From Candidatus Melainabacteria bacterium (GTDB lineage: Bacteria > Cyanobacteriota > Vampirovibrionia > Obscuribacterales > Obscuribacteraceae): a DNA stretch of 36,151 nucleotides. The stretch is from positions 1 through 36,151 of the forward strand of contig JADZFV010000373.1 of the NCBI GenBank assembly GCA_020854255.1, given 5' to 3'. Numbering within the stretch: position 1 is the first letter of the stretch; every line of letters begins with the position of its first letter. Made by a program: the position numbers and the translations under genes. The notes under the pieces were generated by a model. It was not told where the DNA came from. It searched no databases and saw only the letters and a program-made list of their open reading frames with translations. Positions 7,662 to 18,515 of the stretch are shown piece after piece.

Positions 7662-8675
7662 TTGGTAAAGCCGGCTGCAGCTTATTCCGAAATTGAACAA
7701 TGTGAGATACAAGCGACATTGCTTAGTGACTCATTTGGGGCCGATGCTTTTCCGCCGTTCTCGTCGCCCTCTTCGTCTCAACTGGTTTTGCATTGCCCTG
7801 CATGCGATGCAGAGACGTTTTTGGGCGATCAATTCTGTCAGGAATGCGGAAGTATGCAGCCGGCTTTCGAGAGCAAGCCGAGTTTTTCACCCGAGTCCGT
7901 AAAGCACCTGGTCGCCTTCATTCGCGAGCATCTTATCGGCCTTTGTGCTTCCGCACTTGCACTGCTCGTAATTGCTCTTGTGGTGTCAGTTGTAAGATTG
8001 CCGAACGAGCTCGATAAAACTATTTCCGCCAATCGATTGAATGACGCTGCCGACCTGGCAGAGAAATTGTTCGTTTCACGCTTCGGCGCCTTGAATGGAG
8101 GCGATGCCGAGTCGTATAGCGAAGCGTTCTACAAGAGAGCGCAAGTCTTCGCGAAAAATGGCAATTTCAAACGCGCTCTGGTCGATCTGTCAAAAGTCTT
8201 GCCGAGTTTTTCCAGGAGCAATGAAGTTGCTCAGCTGAAAGCTTCCTACAAGCTTTCTTTGACACAGGCAAATCCTCCTCATGATACAAACGCGGCTGTA
8301 GGAATTGAAACTCGTTCGCCAGCACGTCCAACCAAATCCAAAGACTTCAACGAGCAAAGCATGAGCAGAATGCCGGTCCATAGTAAGACCACACCTGAAG
8401 GTTCCACATCTATAGCCAGTGACGCCGCAATCAATGCGGCGGAAGTTGAGGCACAAGCAACTGATTGCGCCAGCAACGACACAGACGAAGTAAACTCAGA
8501 AGAGGCGGATATGGCGGCGTACAATCGGCATCTGGCTGAGTATTTTTCGCACAGAGAATCCAACCACATAAAGGACGGGAAAAATTCTGCAGATTCCAAA
8601 GACTTGAAAGTTTTAAAGGTGAAGGATCCACCGTCTTTCAGCGAATGGGTTCAAACTGGCAAAGCTGACTTTTAG
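7662..8675 (+). CDS. Zinc-ribbon membrane protein, function unknown
   Basis: A protein of about 337 residues. A zinc ribbon CPACDAETFLGDQFCQECG uses Cys45, Cys48, Cys59 and Cys62, a double-zinc-ribbon-like pattern common at the start of bacterial membrane proteins. A single transmembrane helix follows at about residues 91-111. Next is a helical segment (residues 120-200) with TPR-like pattern AESYSEAFYKRAQVFAKNGN, then a low-complexity, acidic tail. The zinc ribbon would be cytoplasmic. The start is uncertain: TTG 7662 has only a weak purine stretch upstream, and TTG 7719 is an alternative. It is 10 bases from the YkgJ-like gene, so the two are probably co-transcribed. Confidence 0.75.
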   Translation: MVKPAAAYSEIEQCEIQATLLSDSFGADAFPPFSSPSSSQLVLHCPACDAETFLGDQFCQECGSMQPAFESKPSFSPESVKHLVAFIREHLIGLCASALALLVIALVVSVVRLPNELDKTISANRLNDAADLAEKLFVSRFGALNGGDAESYSEAFYKRAQVFAKNGNFKRALVDLSKVLPSFSRSNEVAQLKASYKLSLTQANPPHDTNAAVGIETRSPARPTKSKDFNEQSMSRMPVHSKTTPEGSTSIASDAAINAAEVEAQATDCASNDTDEVNSEEADMAAYNRHLAEYFSHRESNHIKDGKNSADSKDLKVLKVKDPPSFSEWVQTGKADF

Positions 8676-8685
8676 TGGTGGTGCA

Positions 8686-10083
8686 ATGACTTTTGGAAAC
8701 ACAATTCAAGGTGAGAGCAAAGGCAACGAGAACGAATTGCCGCTCATTATTCCTGAGGGTATTCGATACAACTGTCAGGGTTGCGGTCGCTGCTGCTCCG
8801 GTTGGGCAGTCGGTCTGACGGATGAAGACTATGACCGGGTCAAAGATGTGAATTGGGGCGAGCTTAAAGAGGAGCTCAAAGGGCAGGAGCTATTCGTCGA
8901 CCGGCGCAAGGAATTTGAAGCCGGCTATTCCATGTATCCTTACTTCACCAAGCCGCGCCCGGACGGCACTTGCCCATTTCTCTTCGACAATCTCTGTTTT
9001 ATCCACGCCGCACGGGGCGAAGATCAGAAACCGGAGATGTGCAAACTGTTTCCTTATACATTCGTGCCTACTCCCTCGGGAATTTTCGTCAGCGTCGTAG
9101 CAAACAGCATGGCGTCAGTGCGCAATCTTGGAGAGCTTTTGACGAATCAGCGCAAGATGCTGGCAGAGATCTGGCAGCAAACAGTAGATCATGAGCGTGC
9201 TCAGGGACGAAGCACTCAGCAGATTTCTGATGTAGCTTCGACAATTTCGGCGGAAACCCTGAAAGGTGTAAAGTACGACGTCAATCTGGTGCCTGGTGTA
9301 GCGCTGACCTGGGATGAGTACATGCACATCGATACTCGTTTGATTGAACTGATTAATTCGCAAGAGCACAAGAATATTTTTGATACTTTAATAGCGGCGG
9401 CAGAGCTGCTTCTGGAAGCATTGAAAATTAAAAACAAAGGCGAGAATCTGGCGCAATTGTCCGAGCGCGCTGTCAGTCCGGAAACGGTCGACAGGTACAA
9501 ACAAGAACCGCCGACAACATTTGAAAATTTGCTCTTCAATCTTCAATGTTTCCGCAGTTTTGAATGGCCTCTTTTGCGCAAGCAGTATGCGGCCAATTGG
9601 GCAGCTGCTAACAAAAGTCCGCTCATGGAGCCGAAAGTACTCAAAGCAGGCATACGCTCTGTAATGGGAGGAAAGATTGAATTCCCCTACACGGGCGTGG
9701 TCAGCATTCCTGCCGTGCGCAAATATAAGGTCGAGCCCTTTTCACCTGAGATCAATGAGTTTCTTCGCCGCTATCTTTATATGAAAGTCTTCAGCAAGGG
9801 CTTTTGCGGTCCTTCAATGAGCGGGCTTTCGGTTGTTGCCGGCTACAACAATATTGTCGCCAATTTCTTGACGGCGGTAATCTATGTGAAGGCGCGGGCT
9901 ATGACGGGCAAAGAGACAGAAGTTAAAATCGCGGATTTTTACGAAGCTTATTTCCTTCTCGATAAGGAAGTTGTGCAAGTCAGTCAGTTGCCCAAAGACA
10001 AGGCGCAGTTTTTTGATTCCGGATTTGCGTCGCCGCGGCTATTCAGCCGCTTGCTCGGGCGGATGGCAAGGGAGATTGGATAA
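8686..10083 (+). CDS. YkgJ/FliB-like cysteine-cluster protein
   Basis: A 465-residue protein whose N-terminal domain has the CxxCxxCC motif CQGCGRCC (Cys30, Cys33, Cys36, Cys37), then Cys96 and Cys104 (CPFLFDNLCFIH) and Cys119 (MCKLFPYTF). This is the YkgJ-type putative zinc- or iron-binding cluster shared with flagellin lysine N-methylase FliB. The remaining 340 residues are mainly helical and unlike anything I know. No flagellar gene is in view, so the name FliB is not justified. GTGGTG precedes the ATG. The stop is four bases before the next ATG, indicating an operon with the TMTC-like glycosyltransferase. Confidence 0.85.
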   Translation: MTFGNTIQGESKGNENELPLIIPEGIRYNCQGCGRCCSGWAVGLTDEDYDRVKDVNWGELKEELKGQELFVDRRKEFEAGYSMYPYFTKPRPDGTCPFLFDNLCFIHAARGEDQKPEMCKLFPYTFVPTPSGIFVSVVANSMASVRNLGELLTNQRKMLAEIWQQTVDHERAQGRSTQQISDVASTISAETLKGVKYDVNLVPGVALTWDEYMHIDTRLIELINSQEHKNIFDTLIAAAELLLEALKIKNKGENLAQLSERAVSPETVDRYKQEPPTTFENLLFNLQCFRSFEWPLLRKQYAANWAAANKSPLMEPKVLKAGIRSVMGGKIEFPYTGVVSIPAVRKYKVEPFSPEINEFLRRYLYMKVFSKGFCGPSMSGLSVVAGYNNIVANFLTAVIYVKARAMTGKETEVKIADFYEAYFLLDKEVVQVSQLPKDKAQFFDSGFASPRLFSRLLGRMAREIG

Positions 10084-10087
10084 AACA

Positions 10088-12478
10088 ATGAGTAAAGGAA
10101 AAAACAAGAAGCAGAAGCCGGCGCAGGAAAAACCGCTGAAAAATGCCAATGAGACCGCGGATGAAACCGCAGCAGAGGCTTTCTCTGGGGCTGCAGAAGA
10201 AAATAAACGCGAGAGCAAGACCGAGAATATGTTCCGCATGTGGAATGCGCGTCCGACGCAAGTTCCCAGCGTACCTAAAGCAAAAGGTGCCGCCGATCCA
10301 CTCAGTGGTTTGCCGAAACATCCAATCGATTGGAAGGCTGTTTCGATCGCTGCGACCATGGTTTGCGTGCTGGCGATTTTTTCGCACATCATGGGTTTGT
10401 TCGGTCAATTCGTTTTAAACGACCAGTTGATTTTGACCCCGCTTAAGATCGGTGGCGACAGCGATATTTTCTGGTCAACACTGGTGGCCCGTGGTCTCGC
10501 CACGCCGCTTTCAGGGCTCTGGACCAATATCAGCCTGGTGATGGATTTGAAGTCGGGAAGCCTTATCTGGTTTCACCTCGTCAATTTGTCCCTGCATGCA
10601 ATCGCGTCCGTCTATCTGTTTTTCCTCCTTTTCCAGCTCGGGCGCTACTGGCTGCTTGAAAAGCGTACGGATGTTCGACCCGAGCATTTTGCATTCGCAG
10701 CTGCAGGATTGTTTGCCTGCCATCCCCTGGTTTCTGAAGTAATCTCCTACATTCCCGGCCGTGAAATGGCACTGGTCGGTGCGAATTATTTTCTGGCGAT
10801 GTACTTGTTTTTTTCAGCATTCGTAGCGCGTCGTCCAGTGACAATGGTTTTGTTGTACGCGGCGATGTTTGTCTGCGTAGTCATGTCCGCTCTCTCCGGA
10901 CCGGCATCTGTGACCATCCCCCTGGCGCTTCTCTGTGTGGCCGCACTGGCAAAGCCGCCTGAAATGGAATGGAGAGAGTTTGCACAGTTGCGCTGGACGG
11001 ACCTGACAATTATTGTCATGCTGGCAGCCGCGTTCATCTACCTAATTACTATGGGTATCCCGACAGCTTTGAACAATGGTGTCGGTCTTAACACTCTGCC
11101 CTTCGATCAGTATCTCGCCTCTGAATTCAAGGCGTTTGCCACTTACTTCCTGCGCTGTTTCCTGGTGCCCGGGGGGCTCTCCATCGAGCCGCCTCTGATA
11201 GTGGCAAAAGGATTTACCGATCCTCTGGCGCTTTTGGGTGTCGCCGCTGTCGGCGCAATTGCCTATCTCGCCTACCTGCACCGCACGATTCCGCACGTGG
11301 TTTTTGGCCTGATTCTCACCTTGATCGGGCTGCTTCCTGATTTCGTCCTTCCTCAATCGGAAATCGTTTCTGATGCACGTTTCTATATTTCGATCGCCGG
11401 ACTGGCGATTGTTTTTGGTTGGGGCGTTGCGAAAATGTCAGCGCTCAATTTCAAACAGATCGCTGCAGCAGTTGCAATTTTGTTTGTCGGCTTTGCGGGT
11501 CTGTCCAACTGGCGCGCGCTTGCCTGGTCTACTGATGAAAATGTCTGGCGCGAGATTTTGAGAACCAATCCTGAAAGTGCTCGTGCACATGCCAAGCTCG
11601 GTTTTCTTGCTTTGATCGCCAACAAGATGCCCGACGCCCAGAAGGAAGCCGATGCGGCTCTTAGGCTAGACGCCCGGCTGCCGCTTGCTCACCTTCTTTT
11701 GGGTCGAATTCGGCAATCCGAGCACAATAGCGCAGAGGCCTACAAAGAATTCGAAACCGCGCTCAAACTTGCAAAAGACAACAATGCCTCCTCGATTATC
11801 GTCGCCCAGTGCCAAGCACAATTAGCCGATGCCCTTGTGCGTCAGGGCGACTATGCGCGGGTGAAAGACCTTGTCAAGGAAGCGAAGGTGATTCTCGGGC
11901 AGAGTGCACAACTTCATTATTTGACTGGAATGCTGGCGCTTAATGACAAGCAATTTGTGAATGCAATCGTCGAGTTGCAGCAAGGATTCATTCAGGATCC
12001 GAAAAACGAGCAATATGTCGAGCCGCTTGTCACTGCATACTTGGGCAGTCGTATGCCGACGCTGATTCCTCAAGCTTATAAGTTGATAGATAGAGCAATT
12101 GCGACGTTCCCGACAAGAGATGCGTTCTTGCTTCAAGCAAGAGCCGCTATTGAACTGAACATGATCACAGAGGCCAAGGAAGCGATCGACAACGCGGTCA
12201 AGATGGGTGAAGAAGATGCTCAAACTTTCTATCTCAGAAGCTTCGTTGCCAGAGCAGAAAAAAATGATGCGCAAGCTTCCGCCTTCAAGGCAAAGGCGCT
12301 GGCGCTCGATCCGAAGATTGAATCAAACGTGCCGGTGATCGCGCCTGATCAGATGAAGAAATATCTGGATAAAGAAACAGGAAATCCGCAGACACCGCAG
12401 GCTCCGACCACTATTCCGGCTCCCGCGTCGCCTCAGGGCGCCGCAGCTCCGGCGGCTCCGCAGGCAACAAGATTTTGA
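10088..12478 (+). CDS. Membrane glycosyltransferase-like protein with TPRs (TMTC-like)
   Basis: A 796-residue protein. A lysine-rich cytoplasmic N-terminus (MSKGKNKKQKPAQEK) is followed by about ten transmembrane helices from residue 80 to about 480, then TPR repeats from about 490 to 750 (for example NPESARAHAKLGFLALIANK) and a Pro/Ala tail. The first external loop FVLNDQLIL and the later FACHPLVSEVISYIPGREMA resemble the D-D and HP...Y..GR segments of TMTC/GT-C glycosyltransferases that use lipid-linked sugars. The start is ATG 10088, just after the stop of the YkgJ-like gene, with AGGGAG upstream; an in-frame start further 5' would overlap that gene by over 100 bases. The donor and target are unknown. 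Confidence 0.85.
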   Translation: MSKGKNKKQKPAQEKPLKNANETADETAAEAFSGAAEENKRESKTENMFRMWNARPTQVPSVPKAKGAADPLSGLPKHPIDWKAVSIAATMVCVLAIFSHIMGLFGQFVLNDQLILTPLKIGGDSDIFWSTLVARGLATPLSGLWTNISLVMDLKSGSLIWFHLVNLSLHAIASVYLFFLLFQLGRYWLLEKRTDVRPEHFAFAAAGLFACHPLVSEVISYIPGREMALVGANYFLAMYLFFSAFVARRPVTMVLLYAAMFVCVVMSALSGPASVTIPLALLCVAALAKPPEMEWREFAQLRWTDLTIIVMLAAAFIYLITMGIPTALNNGVGLNTLPFDQYLASEFKAFATYFLRCFLVPGGLSIEPPLIVAKGFTDPLALLGVAAVGAIAYLAYLHRTIPHVVFGLILTLIGLLPDFVLPQSEIVSDARFYISIAGLAIVFGWGVAKMSALNFKQIAAAVAILFVGFAGLSNWRALAWSTDENVWREILRTNPESARAHAKLGFLALIANKMPDAQKEADAALRLDARLPLAHLLLGRIRQSEHNSAEAYKEFETALKLAKDNNASSIIVAQCQAQLADALVRQGDYARVKDLVKEAKVILGQSAQLHYLTGMLALNDKQFVNAIVELQQGFIQDPKNEQYVEPLVTAYLGSRMPTLIPQAYKLIDRAIATFPTRDAFLLQARAAIELNMITEAKEAIDNAVKMGEEDAQTFYLRSFVARAEKNDAQASAFKAKALALDPKIESNVPVIAPDQMKKYLDKETGNPQTPQAPTTIPAPASPQGAAAPAAPQATRF

Positions 12479-12808: not shown

Positions 12809-14746
12809 ATGAACAGACAATCCAGCAAATTTGTGTTGTGCGGAATCAGTGCTTTCTCAATCCTGGTGGGTGTTTGTCAGGCGCCGTCGGTGGCTCAAGT
12901 CAAGCAGACGTCGGCGCCACAGCAGGCTCCATCGTTCTTGAAACAGGCCGGGCAGATGATACTGGATAACGCTCAGAAGGGCGTTTTGAAAAATGTTAAT
13001 CAAACATTGCAGGCGCCGGCTCAGCAGCCTCAAACCCAGACACCGCCTGGCTATTCAGGTGATCCGACCTCATTGCTGTACAACACGCAGCCGGCCGCAG
13101 TCGTACCAAAGCAACAACAAGCCGCTCCCTGCCGTTCTTGGGTTAACCCTGCTGAAAAACCGGTGGCAATCTTACTTTGCATTCACGGTCTGGGGTTGCA
13201 GAGCAACTCTTACGAGTTTTTCGGCACGGAGCAGTCAAAGAGAGGATTGGCAGTCTACGCAATCGATGTGCGCGGATTTGGATCGTGGATGAAGGCGGGC
13301 GGCAAGACCCAAGTGAATTTCAATGACTGTCTGGCGGACATCAAGCAAGCTGCTGAATCGATTCGCGCTGCCAATCCGGGAATTCCACTTTATATTTTGG
13401 GCGAATCCATGGGTGGTGCCATTGCGCTGAGAGCGGCGTCCATGTATCCCGATCTCATTGATGGATTGATTTCGTCAGTCCCGGCGGGAGAACGTTTTAA
13501 TCAGGGCAAGACGAGCGCCAAGGTTTTTCTCAATCTTCTCAGTGGGTTTAACCTGGCAAACGTCGGCGGCGACCTGGTTAATCAAGCCACGCAAAATGCA
13601 AAACTCAAATACAAGTGGCAACAAGATCCGCTTGCACGTCTGAATTTGACTCCGCAGGAATTGATTCAGTTTCAAGATTTCATGAATAGCAATCATGATG
13701 CGGCAAGGAAGTTGACAGATATGCCGGTGCTTTTTGTGCAAGGAAATGGGGATCAGCTCGTCAAGCCGGAAGGCACGTGGGAATTGTTCAACAGTGTGGC
13801 AGTAAAAGACAAGTCATTTTTTGCGGTGCCTGGCGAACATTTGATTTTCGAAGAGGCACAAACACAAGATGCAGCTGTTCGTGATCAAAACTTCCGGGTG
13901 ATTTCTTCCTGGTTGACTACAAAGGTTGGCAGGCGTCCAGGGCGCCGGCAAATGGCTGGCGGAGCGCCTTACGGTTCGGGACAATATGGTGGACCGAGTG
14001 CAGGGCCGTATCCGGGCCCGGGACAATATCCCGGTCAAGTTGGAGGGCAGTTTGGCGGACGAGGGTATGGCGGCAGAATGCCTTTCAGCACTGCAGGACT
14101 TGAGCCGCAAGTCCAACTGATTGATAGCCAGCAGTACGCGCAGGCAATCTCGCAACTAGAGCAAATGAGATTGCAGAGGCCTGATGACGCCAATGTGGCT
14201 GCGCTTTTGGGGCGTGCGTACCAGCAAAGCAGCCAGCCGGAAAGGGCTGGGATGATGTACAGGCGTGCGATGCGCCTCAGTCGTGGTCGCGCTGATCAGG
14301 CTCAAGCATTTAATAGCTATTTGCTCGGACTCAGCAACATTGCGCCAGCCGGCGCTCTACAAAGCCAGCCGGTGCCGTATGCGGGTGGAGGCAGCGGGCT
14401 CGGTCAGATTGTCAGCGGACTGGGTGGAAACTGGTTCGGTGGCGGCACTCCGTCCTTCACGCCGGCTGTAAAAGGTCGTGTTTATGCTTTTTATGCCAAC
14501 TGGGCCGACCAGTGCAAGAGCATGAACGAGGCTCTGACTCGACTCTTCATTACATACGGAGATCGAGTCGACTTTCAGCGAATCGACATTGACAGCGCGA
14601 CAGCTGACTCTTTAGTGGAGCAATTCAAAGTCGGTCCGATACCGACCGTGATTTTTGTTGCACCCAATGGACAAGTGTCGAGCACCATTATCGGCGAATC
14701 CACACCCGGCAATTATGAGGCAGCAATAAAAGCGATATCTCGCTAA
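12809..14746 (+). CDS. Secreted alpha/beta-hydrolase fused to TPR and thioredoxin-like domains
   Basis: A 645-residue protein. The signal peptide starts MNRQSSKFVLCGISAFSILV and ends near VAQ. An alpha/beta-hydrolase of the monoacylglycerol lipase/serine aminopeptidase type follows: CIHGLGLQSNSYEF (oxyanion loop), GESMGG with nucleophile Ser200, acid Asp315 (QGNGDQLV) and His344 (PGEHLIF). Then a Gly/Pro/Tyr-rich linker (about residues 375-430), a TPR pair (AALLGRAYQQSSQPERAGMM) and a C-terminal thioredoxin fold. The thioredoxin motif is WADQC, keeping only the second cysteine (Cys569), while cis-Pro is present (GPIPTVIFV). ATG 12809 is preferred over TTG 12794 because it gives a normal signal peptide. 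Substrate unknown. It stands alone, convergent with a YyaL gene. Confidence 0.88.
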   Translation: MNRQSSKFVLCGISAFSILVGVCQAPSVAQVKQTSAPQQAPSFLKQAGQMILDNAQKGVLKNVNQTLQAPAQQPQTQTPPGYSGDPTSLLYNTQPAAVVPKQQQAAPCRSWVNPAEKPVAILLCIHGLGLQSNSYEFFGTEQSKRGLAVYAIDVRGFGSWMKAGGKTQVNFNDCLADIKQAAESIRAANPGIPLYILGESMGGAIALRAASMYPDLIDGLISSVPAGERFNQGKTSAKVFLNLLSGFNLANVGGDLVNQATQNAKLKYKWQQDPLARLNLTPQELIQFQDFMNSNHDAARKLTDMPVLFVQGNGDQLVKPEGTWELFNSVAVKDKSFFAVPGEHLIFEEAQTQDAAVRDQNFRVISSWLTTKVGRRPGRRQMAGGAPYGSGQYGGPSAGPYPGPGQYPGQVGGQFGGRGYGGRMPFSTAGLEPQVQLIDSQQYAQAISQLEQMRLQRPDDANVAALLGRAYQQSSQPERAGMMYRRAMRLSRGRADQAQAFNSYLLGLSNIAPAGALQSQPVPYAGGGSGLGQIVSGLGGNWFGGGTPSFTPAVKGRVYAFYANWADQCKSMNEALTRLFITYGDRVDFQRIDIDSATADSLVEQFKVGPIPTVIFVAPNGQVSSTIIGESTPGNYEAAIKAISR

Positions 14747-14764
14747 ATTAGTTCGTTTGTCAAA

Positions 14765-14792
14765 CCCCGGCATTAATGCCGGGGCCTCCTTT
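14765..14792 (+). terminator. Terminator-like hairpin GTCAAACCCC type, copy 2
   Basis: CCCCGGCATTAATGCCGGGG is a perfect 20-base palindrome, preceded by GTCAAA and followed by CCTCCTTTT. A second hairpin, AGGGGCGCTT/AAGTGCCCT, follows at 14809-14830. They lie between convergent genes and could end both transcripts. Confidence 0.75.
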
Positions 14793-14832
14793 TGAGGATG
14801 AATTTACAGGGGCGCTTATAAAAGTGCCCTGT

Positions 14833-17318
<2,486 letters not shown>

Positions 17319-17322
<4 letters not shown>

Positions 17323-18515
17323 TTTCTGTCTCCTATTGCCAGACCGTAGGCCACAAGCGTCGATTCTACTGCCTTTTCCCATGTGATTTCCTTAGCGGTT
17401 GTCATTGCTGCTGAAGAAAGGCGTGACGCCAGTTCACGATCGTTCATCAAACGCCCTATCAGTGTTGCCAGCTCCTTGTGGTCGAGATGGTCCTTCAAGA
17501 TGAGGGCGTCCTCGTTGTCGGTCAATATCTCCGAGACTCCGGACACAGCGCTCACGATCGGTACCAGCCCGCGCATCATCCCTTGAATGGGCGACATACC
17601 GAAGGGCTCGATTCGTGACGGCAGTACGATCGCTTCAGCCTGACGATAAATGTTCTCCATGTCGTGGCGGAAGCCCAGATACACTACTTCTTTGTTCAAT
17701 CCCAGGCGTGCCAATCGGAAGGCATCGGCCGGTTTTTTGGACAAACCTGCAATCAGAAGACGGCAGTCCTTCTTATCAGACTTCAATTCTTTCATCGCCT
17801 CAAGAAGCACATCAAGCCCTTTCTTCCTGAATCCTTTGCCGACGAAGAGCAAGGTGAAAGGCTCGCCGTCTTTTCGTGTCGGTTTTGATTCCGGCTCAGT
17901 GGCAGGCGAATCAGCCAGACTGGCGCCCGGGTACGAAATCACGGACGGTTTTGTGCCAAGAAAGAAGGTCTTGTAGAAATCATCGCGGCAGGTCTTGGAT
18001 GTGAAATTGAGACATTTTGCCGCTCTGGCAAGTTGTCTATCGACATCATTTCTTGCCTGATAGGCGGGGGTGAATGCGACTTTTCCACTATTGAGCAGGC
18101 GTTCCCAGACCTTGCCGACCTCAGACAGGCGAAAGACCGTGTGATTGTGGAAGGTGGCAACGTCGACCGGGCTTACTGGGTGATGTTGTGTGTGCACGAT
18201 ATCGAACGGCCCGGCAGCTTTTACCGCGGCAGAAGTTAGCTCCAGATACAGCTTCAGACGCTCAGATTTGGACAACTTCCTTTTCGGCAGGGCAAAGAGT
18301 TGAAATTTGAGATGCGGATGCGTCAGCTTCGACTGATTCTGCTCGCAAACAACCGTGACTTGAGCGCCGCGTTCGAGCAGACCTTCCACGATCTTATGGC
18401 AATATAGCTCGAGCCCGCCGGAAGGTGAAAATAAGCGAGATACCATGCAGACACGCAAGCCCGCCGGGTCAATGGCATTGGCGCTGCTGGATTTAGCTAC
18501 GTCTGTTATTTGCAC
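17319..18515 (-). CDS. GT4-family glycosyltransferase
   Basis: A 398-residue GT-B-fold enzyme expected to transfer a sugar from a nucleotide-sugar at the cytoplasmic face. The N-terminal domain begins [20 protein letters not shown], with the Gly-rich acceptor-side loop. The donor-binding half has [40 protein letters not shown] and [10 protein letters not shown]. In the last, the usual EX7E motif reads E-x7-Q. The general pattern resembles WaaG-like LPS glucosyltransferases, but the acceptor cannot be told. GTG 18515 is the start given; no clear ribosome-binding site is seen, so it may be shifted a few codons. The stop overlaps the GTG of the YyaL gene by four bases. Confidence 0.88.

Follow-up and report, generated by a model that had tools for sequence, protein, structure and literature searches.

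A fused hydrolase, TPR and one-cysteine thioredoxin-fold protein and its two-gene counterpart in Obscuribacterales

Why should a lipase-like hydrolase carry, on the same polypeptide, a TPR domain and a thioredoxin fold that retains only one of the two motif cysteines? The question is raised by an open reading frame at 12809–14746 (+) of the window, by which we mean the whole 36,151-nucleotide stretch of DNA analysed here, from a 6.2-Mb metagenome-assembled genome of Obscuribacterales (Melainabacteria). The ORF is single and intact, specifying 645 amino acids without an internal stop, and its ATG at 12809 agrees with the aligned starts of orthologues (MNRLSNKF.. and MTRLSNKF..). The original prediction, made from the DNA alone, was of a hydrolase, TPRs and a thioredoxin fold fused in this order, and all of these parts were located. 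A frameshift joining separate genes, or a chimeric assembly, is ruled out by the presence of the same fused ORF in separate genomes, among them eight full-length orthologues (L031, L032, L033 and L035 to L039) and one cut by the end of its contig (L034). With one more orthologue (L137), the fused gene was found in 10 further genomes, and 40 fused members of the wider family were recovered, so the architecture is not peculiar to the window.

Along the ORF, Pfam revealed Hydrolase_4 at residues 117–349 (3.5e-36), TPR_19 at 437–480 (1.7e-5) and Thioredoxin at 559–637 (1.1e-8). Structure prediction, which had been proposed as a check, gave an AlphaFold2 model with three confident modules (105–373, 432–510 and 556–644) joined by disordered linkers (377–422 and 514–552). 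Submitted whole to Foldseek, the chain ranked human and archaeal monoglyceride lipases first. The suspicion that no named family has this order was borne out: Pfam, NCBIfam and the PDB yielded nothing that matches the combination at full length, no NCBIfam or PDB entry spans the whole chain, and literature searches returned no relevant account of a hydrolase-TPR-thioredoxin fusion. The folds are known; their order, the neighbour-gene counterpart and the redox-dead branch described below were not found in the libraries and papers searched.

The N-terminus (residues 1–29; 12809–12895, +) reads MNRQSSK-FVLCGISAFSILVGV-CQAPSVA and was judged by inspection to be a putative Sec-type signal peptide, as had been claimed; its pattern is shared by the orthologues and cleavage probably occurs after A29. 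Anchoring as a lipoprotein through C23 was considered and rejected, since this residue varies in the alignment of orthologues and the protein consequently has no lipobox. It is followed by a predicted amphipathic helix at residues 43–67 (PSFLKQAGQMILDNAQKGVLKNVNQTLQ; 12935–13009, +), which is helical in the AlphaFold2 model, has a hydrophobic moment of about 0.46 and is conserved across the clade sharing the WADQC motif.

Residues 105–373 (13121–13927, +) comprise an alpha/beta hydrolase with a cap, resembling monoglyceride lipase (MGL) by Pfam, phmmer and Foldseek. The domain scored 125 bits against PF12146 (Hydrolase_4; cut-off 27) and matched human MGL with both phmmer (1.6e-18) and Foldseek (8ptq; 1.9e-14); among solved structures, the human, yeast and archaeal monoglyceride lipases are closest to it in both sequence and fold. 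The predicted catalytic triad is intact, with Ser200 in GESMG (13406–13408, +), Asp315 in GNGDQ (13751–13753, +) and His344 in GEHLIF (13838–13840, +); all three residues are invariant, and in the sequence order Ser-Asp-His of MGL-like serine hydrolases, in 70 of 70 family units, fused or split. Membership of the serine esterases of the monoglyceride lipase/lysophospholipase kind is well supported by sequence and by the model, from which we infer esterase activity and the substrate class. With the enzymes of this family (human MGL 3jw8, archaeal 6qe2, M. tuberculosis Rv0183 6eic; PF12146) the window hydrolase shares the capped fold, the HG-x-G and G-x-S-x-G motifs and the triad, its nucleophile elbow being GESMG where human MGL has GHSMG. 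Those enzymes are single-domain proteins, whereas the window protein adds a signal peptide, the amphipathic helix, linkers and a TPR-thioredoxin arm. Of the three cysteines common to the hydrolases (108, 124 and 174), one is missing in 17 units and a pair in none, a pattern which speaks against a conserved disulfide inside this domain and makes it unlikely that the arm reduces a disulfide of its own hydrolase.

The linker at 374–429 (13928–14095, +) is rich in Gly, Pro and Tyr, as anticipated (18, 8 and 5, respectively, among 52 residues), and disordered by prediction (pLDDT below 50 for 377–422). The TPR domain which follows (430–510; 14096–14338, +) was also correctly recognized, and its TPR_19 match and models describe a small part, with five helices and about two repeats. 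After a second disordered linker (511–554; 14339–14470, +; pLDDT below 50 for 514–552) comes the thioredoxin-fold domain (555–645; 14471–14743, +), on which the Pfam match and the structure model agree. With the arm as query, Foldseek placed thioredoxins at the top, with a TM-score by target of about 0.75. In common with thioredoxin (TIGR01068, PF00085) the domain has the fold, the Trp before the motif and the cis-Pro loop, Pro612 of GPIPT (14642–14644, +) occupying the cis-Pro position of the groove, which holds Pro in 70/70 units. Unlike thioredoxin, it has no CxxC, and its model lacks the classical N-terminal strand and helix (beta1-alpha1); the window protein scored 36 bits against TIGR01068, for which the cut-off is 96.8. 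The motif is WADQC (W565–C569; 14501–14515, +), in which the first cysteine is replaced by Ala, in 11 of 11 orthologues including the one in the window. That only the second cysteine is kept was rightly read from the start: C569 is the sole cysteine of the thioredoxin region, and an alternative thiol of the CnoX type is therefore absent.

The family sample comprises 70 hydrolase/TPR-thioredoxin units, 40 of them fused and 30 present as adjacent genes on the same strand. In the latter, a stand-alone TPR-thioredoxin gene of about 250 codons, usually with its own signal-peptide-like start, directly adjoins the hydrolase gene. Among the 30 best stand-alone loci (L086–L115, where L112 and L016 denote one locus) the hydrolase is adjacent in 29; the exception, L110 (G051), has no hydrolase in its flank, but its contig does carry a family hydrolase, on the same strand and about 5 kb upstream. 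That the same two parts occur either as neighbours or fused points to a working partnership between them. On an unrooted tree built from hydrolase and thioredoxin columns, the motif columns being omitted, the split units group together (support 100/99), and a single change between fused and split suffices. Rooting with stand-alone hydrolases was attempted; the forks which decide the direction had SH-aLRT values of just 81–92, and no direction was assigned. L041 and L009, both related to the WADQC clade, encode only the hydrolase and show no remnant of an arm downstream, and the arm is thus dispensable in some lineages.

The family is lineage-expanded, with 18 and 28 query matches in two fully read genomes. 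In each of four genomes (G002, G003, G006 and G007) a WADQC fusion is found together with both a WCEPC fusion and a split WCQPC pair, and the window's own genome holds two fusions, WADQC and WCEPC. Other paralogues pair the hydrolase with other partners, such as DUF4384 in L043 and TPR-like repeats at the N-terminus in L065. L043 (730–2640, –), L044, L062 and L064 are family hydrolases with a different C-terminal part, DUF4384 having been demonstrated in L043, and hydrolases of this type stand in tandem in G000:C520 and G006:C15. The window's genome also contains a TPR-thioredoxin-like gene without a hydrolase neighbour (L057:1327–2142, +), the motif region of which did not align. Two further ORFs of about 690 codons from the same bacterial family (L123:513–2576, + and L133:655–2739, +) show by Pfam a fusion of PilM, PilN and a C-terminal thioredoxin, PilM and PilN being type IV pilus proteins; in nine others (L124, L126–L130, L135, L138 and L141) a similar length and a C-terminal thioredoxin were seen.

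Within the genomes sampled, the hydrolase/TPR-thioredoxin combination appears to be restricted to one bacterial family. With the stand-alone TPR-thioredoxin query (E≤1e-15), matches came from 46 of 53 genomes in the order, all of them within the window's family, and from none of three genomes of the sister family. In a phylum sample of 292 genomes, matches were confined to the genome of the window itself and to a plain thioredoxin (a 110-aa frame); across 194 genomes of the class, the hydrolase at E≤1e-40 was found exclusively in Obscuribacterales. A scan for close relatives, with one genome per species, gave eleven loci, all of the Obscuribacterales lineage except one in a bin labelled Proteobacteria; a genome search places this contig (G014:C527) in the window's own family. 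Those relatives of the gene which carry a name are listed as bins of Candidatus Obscuribacterales, Melainabacteria or Cyanobacteria. Plasmid-borne relatives of the fusion were sought and discounted: 33 records matched, none over more than 80% of the query, and the matches listed cover the hydrolase part alone.

The surrounding genes are not counted as part of the unit. Only a DUF255 gene recurs downstream, at four loci of the same genus (L031, L032, L034 and L036), where a stretch of about 3.4–4.1 kb separates it from the fusion gene; in L032 this stretch (7819–11420) holds a glycosyltransferase-like ORF and an ORF of 741 amino acids. Only 86 bp (14747–14832) lie between the corresponding genes in the window, the neighbour (14833–17382, –) being a DUF255/DsbH-type protein on the opposite strand, and hence a second thioredoxin-fold protein adjoining the fusion. 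Further upstream, an ORF at 8686–10083 (+), the end of which overlaps the next listed TPR ORF, specifies a CxxCxxCC protein resembling the flagellin lysine-N-methylase FliB (48 bits, below the curated cut-off of 85).

Has the one-cysteine domain decayed, or has it been kept for another purpose? The motif Trp is present in 70/70 units. The second cysteine is kept in 66 (36/40 fused, 30/30 split), with at least three changes on the tree, and the first in 44 (19/40 fused, 25/30 split), with at least nine changes. Between close relatives, pN ranges over 0.01–0.09 for the hydrolase, 0.02–0.14 for the thioredoxin domain, 0.03–0.25 for the TPR and 0.17–0.54 for the linkers (0.17–0.49 for linker 374–429); pS is mostly 0.6–0.9, so synonymous sites are near saturation and ratios are indicative only. 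Since its pN is close to that of the hydrolase while the linkers diverge rapidly, the one-cysteine thioredoxin domain, judged from these substitutions, is under purifying selection rather than decaying, and hence functional. This bears directly upon the idea that the C-terminal arm is a functionless remnant on a self-sufficient hydrolase. The armless L041 and L009 are in its favour, as are fused members with neither motif cysteine (for example L131, WSEPG), yet a remnant would hardly be about as conserved as the catalytic domain or keep WADQC invariant in 11 of 11 orthologues, and we regard this explanation as very improbable.

We propose, with a probability of roughly 55%, that the window protein is an exported MGL-type serine hydrolase whose TPR-thioredoxin arm has become a non-redox binding module, or pseudo-thioredoxin. 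The likely starting state would be a hydrolase and a CxxC TPR-thioredoxin as separate exported partners, in the two-gene unit still seen in many relatives. In the window's clade the two parts lie in one chain, with the arm tethered by the flexible linker; the cysteine which attacks disulfides is gone from the thioredoxin, which retains its motif Trp, its second cysteine and the groove with the cis-proline. The protein would be periplasmic or on the cell surface, its arm holding, protecting or placing the hydrolase on a partner in the envelope. Because the attacking cysteine is gone and the groove kept, binding without redox chemistry is most likely the function of the WADQC arm, by analogy with the thioredoxin mechanism and the precedent of CnoX (PMC6282202, PMC8129009). 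In CxxC members, by comparison, the arm could perform thiol chemistry, and redox-capable paralogues in the same genomes would retain a thiol role.

The closest parallel is the chaperedoxin CnoX/YbbN, in which a thioredoxin fold and TPRs are likewise found in one chain, some lineages having lost the first cysteine (SXXC) and others retaining it (WCGPC) (PMC6282202, PMC8129009). Perhaps, then, the arm is a holdase of this style, keeping the hydrolase, or further proteins of the envelope, from aggregating. The two folds side by side, a first-cysteine loss like that of E. coli CnoX, and several such events in fused and split forms would agree with this. The domain order, however, is reversed (thioredoxin-TPR in CnoX/YbbN, TPR-thioredoxin here), the TPR is much shorter, and the extra reactive cysteine which E. 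coli CnoX has away from its motif is absent; the 50 best structural hits which Foldseek gave for the arm do not include CnoX. CnoX/YbbN as described has a long TPR and no hydrolase, and acts with DnaK and GroEL (PMC6282202, PMC8129009), to which an exported protein would have no access for delivery. On balance such a role seems rather unlikely.

In thioredoxin the second motif cysteine is buried. Its retention in 66/70 units while the first was lost repeatedly could mean that it does chemistry rather than packing the core. Cys569 might then form mixed disulfides, or sulfenic or persulfide intermediates, with envelope proteins, coupling hydrolysis to redox repair or regulation, and DsbD-type transporters found in G000 and G006 could import reductant to recycle periplasmic thiols. 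Against this, the nucleophile of thioredoxin is the first cysteine, not the second; no DsbB or VKOR match was found in either of these two genomes; and CnoX with SXXC showed no oxidoreductase activity (PMC6282202, PMC8129009). DsbD without DsbB or VKOR would fit a periplasm which imports reducing power for the CxxC paralogues. Since first-cysteine loss is recurrent and the domain is under purifying selection, a non-redox role is likelier than disulfide exchange by Cys569, and we consider a one-cysteine thiol enzyme unlikely.

If the arm is a non-redox module, redox-active and redox-dead hydrolase/TPR-thioredoxin units would coexist in one cell, and it is conceivable, though doubtful, that the dead version serves the lipase as an active regulator or by docking it, much as pseudokinases stand beside kinases. 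The occurrence of the same parts as neighbours and as fusions over tens of genomes connects a presumably exported lipase-like enzyme with a partner of the thioredoxin-TPR kind. Repeated loss of the catalytic cysteine in a domain under strong purifying selection offers a natural series (WCQPC, WCEPC, WAQPC, WADQC, WSEPG) for the role of a thioredoxin fold after its chemistry has gone, and the whole offers an initial way into a large enzyme family of Obscuribacterales, a sister group of the cyanobacteria about which little is known.
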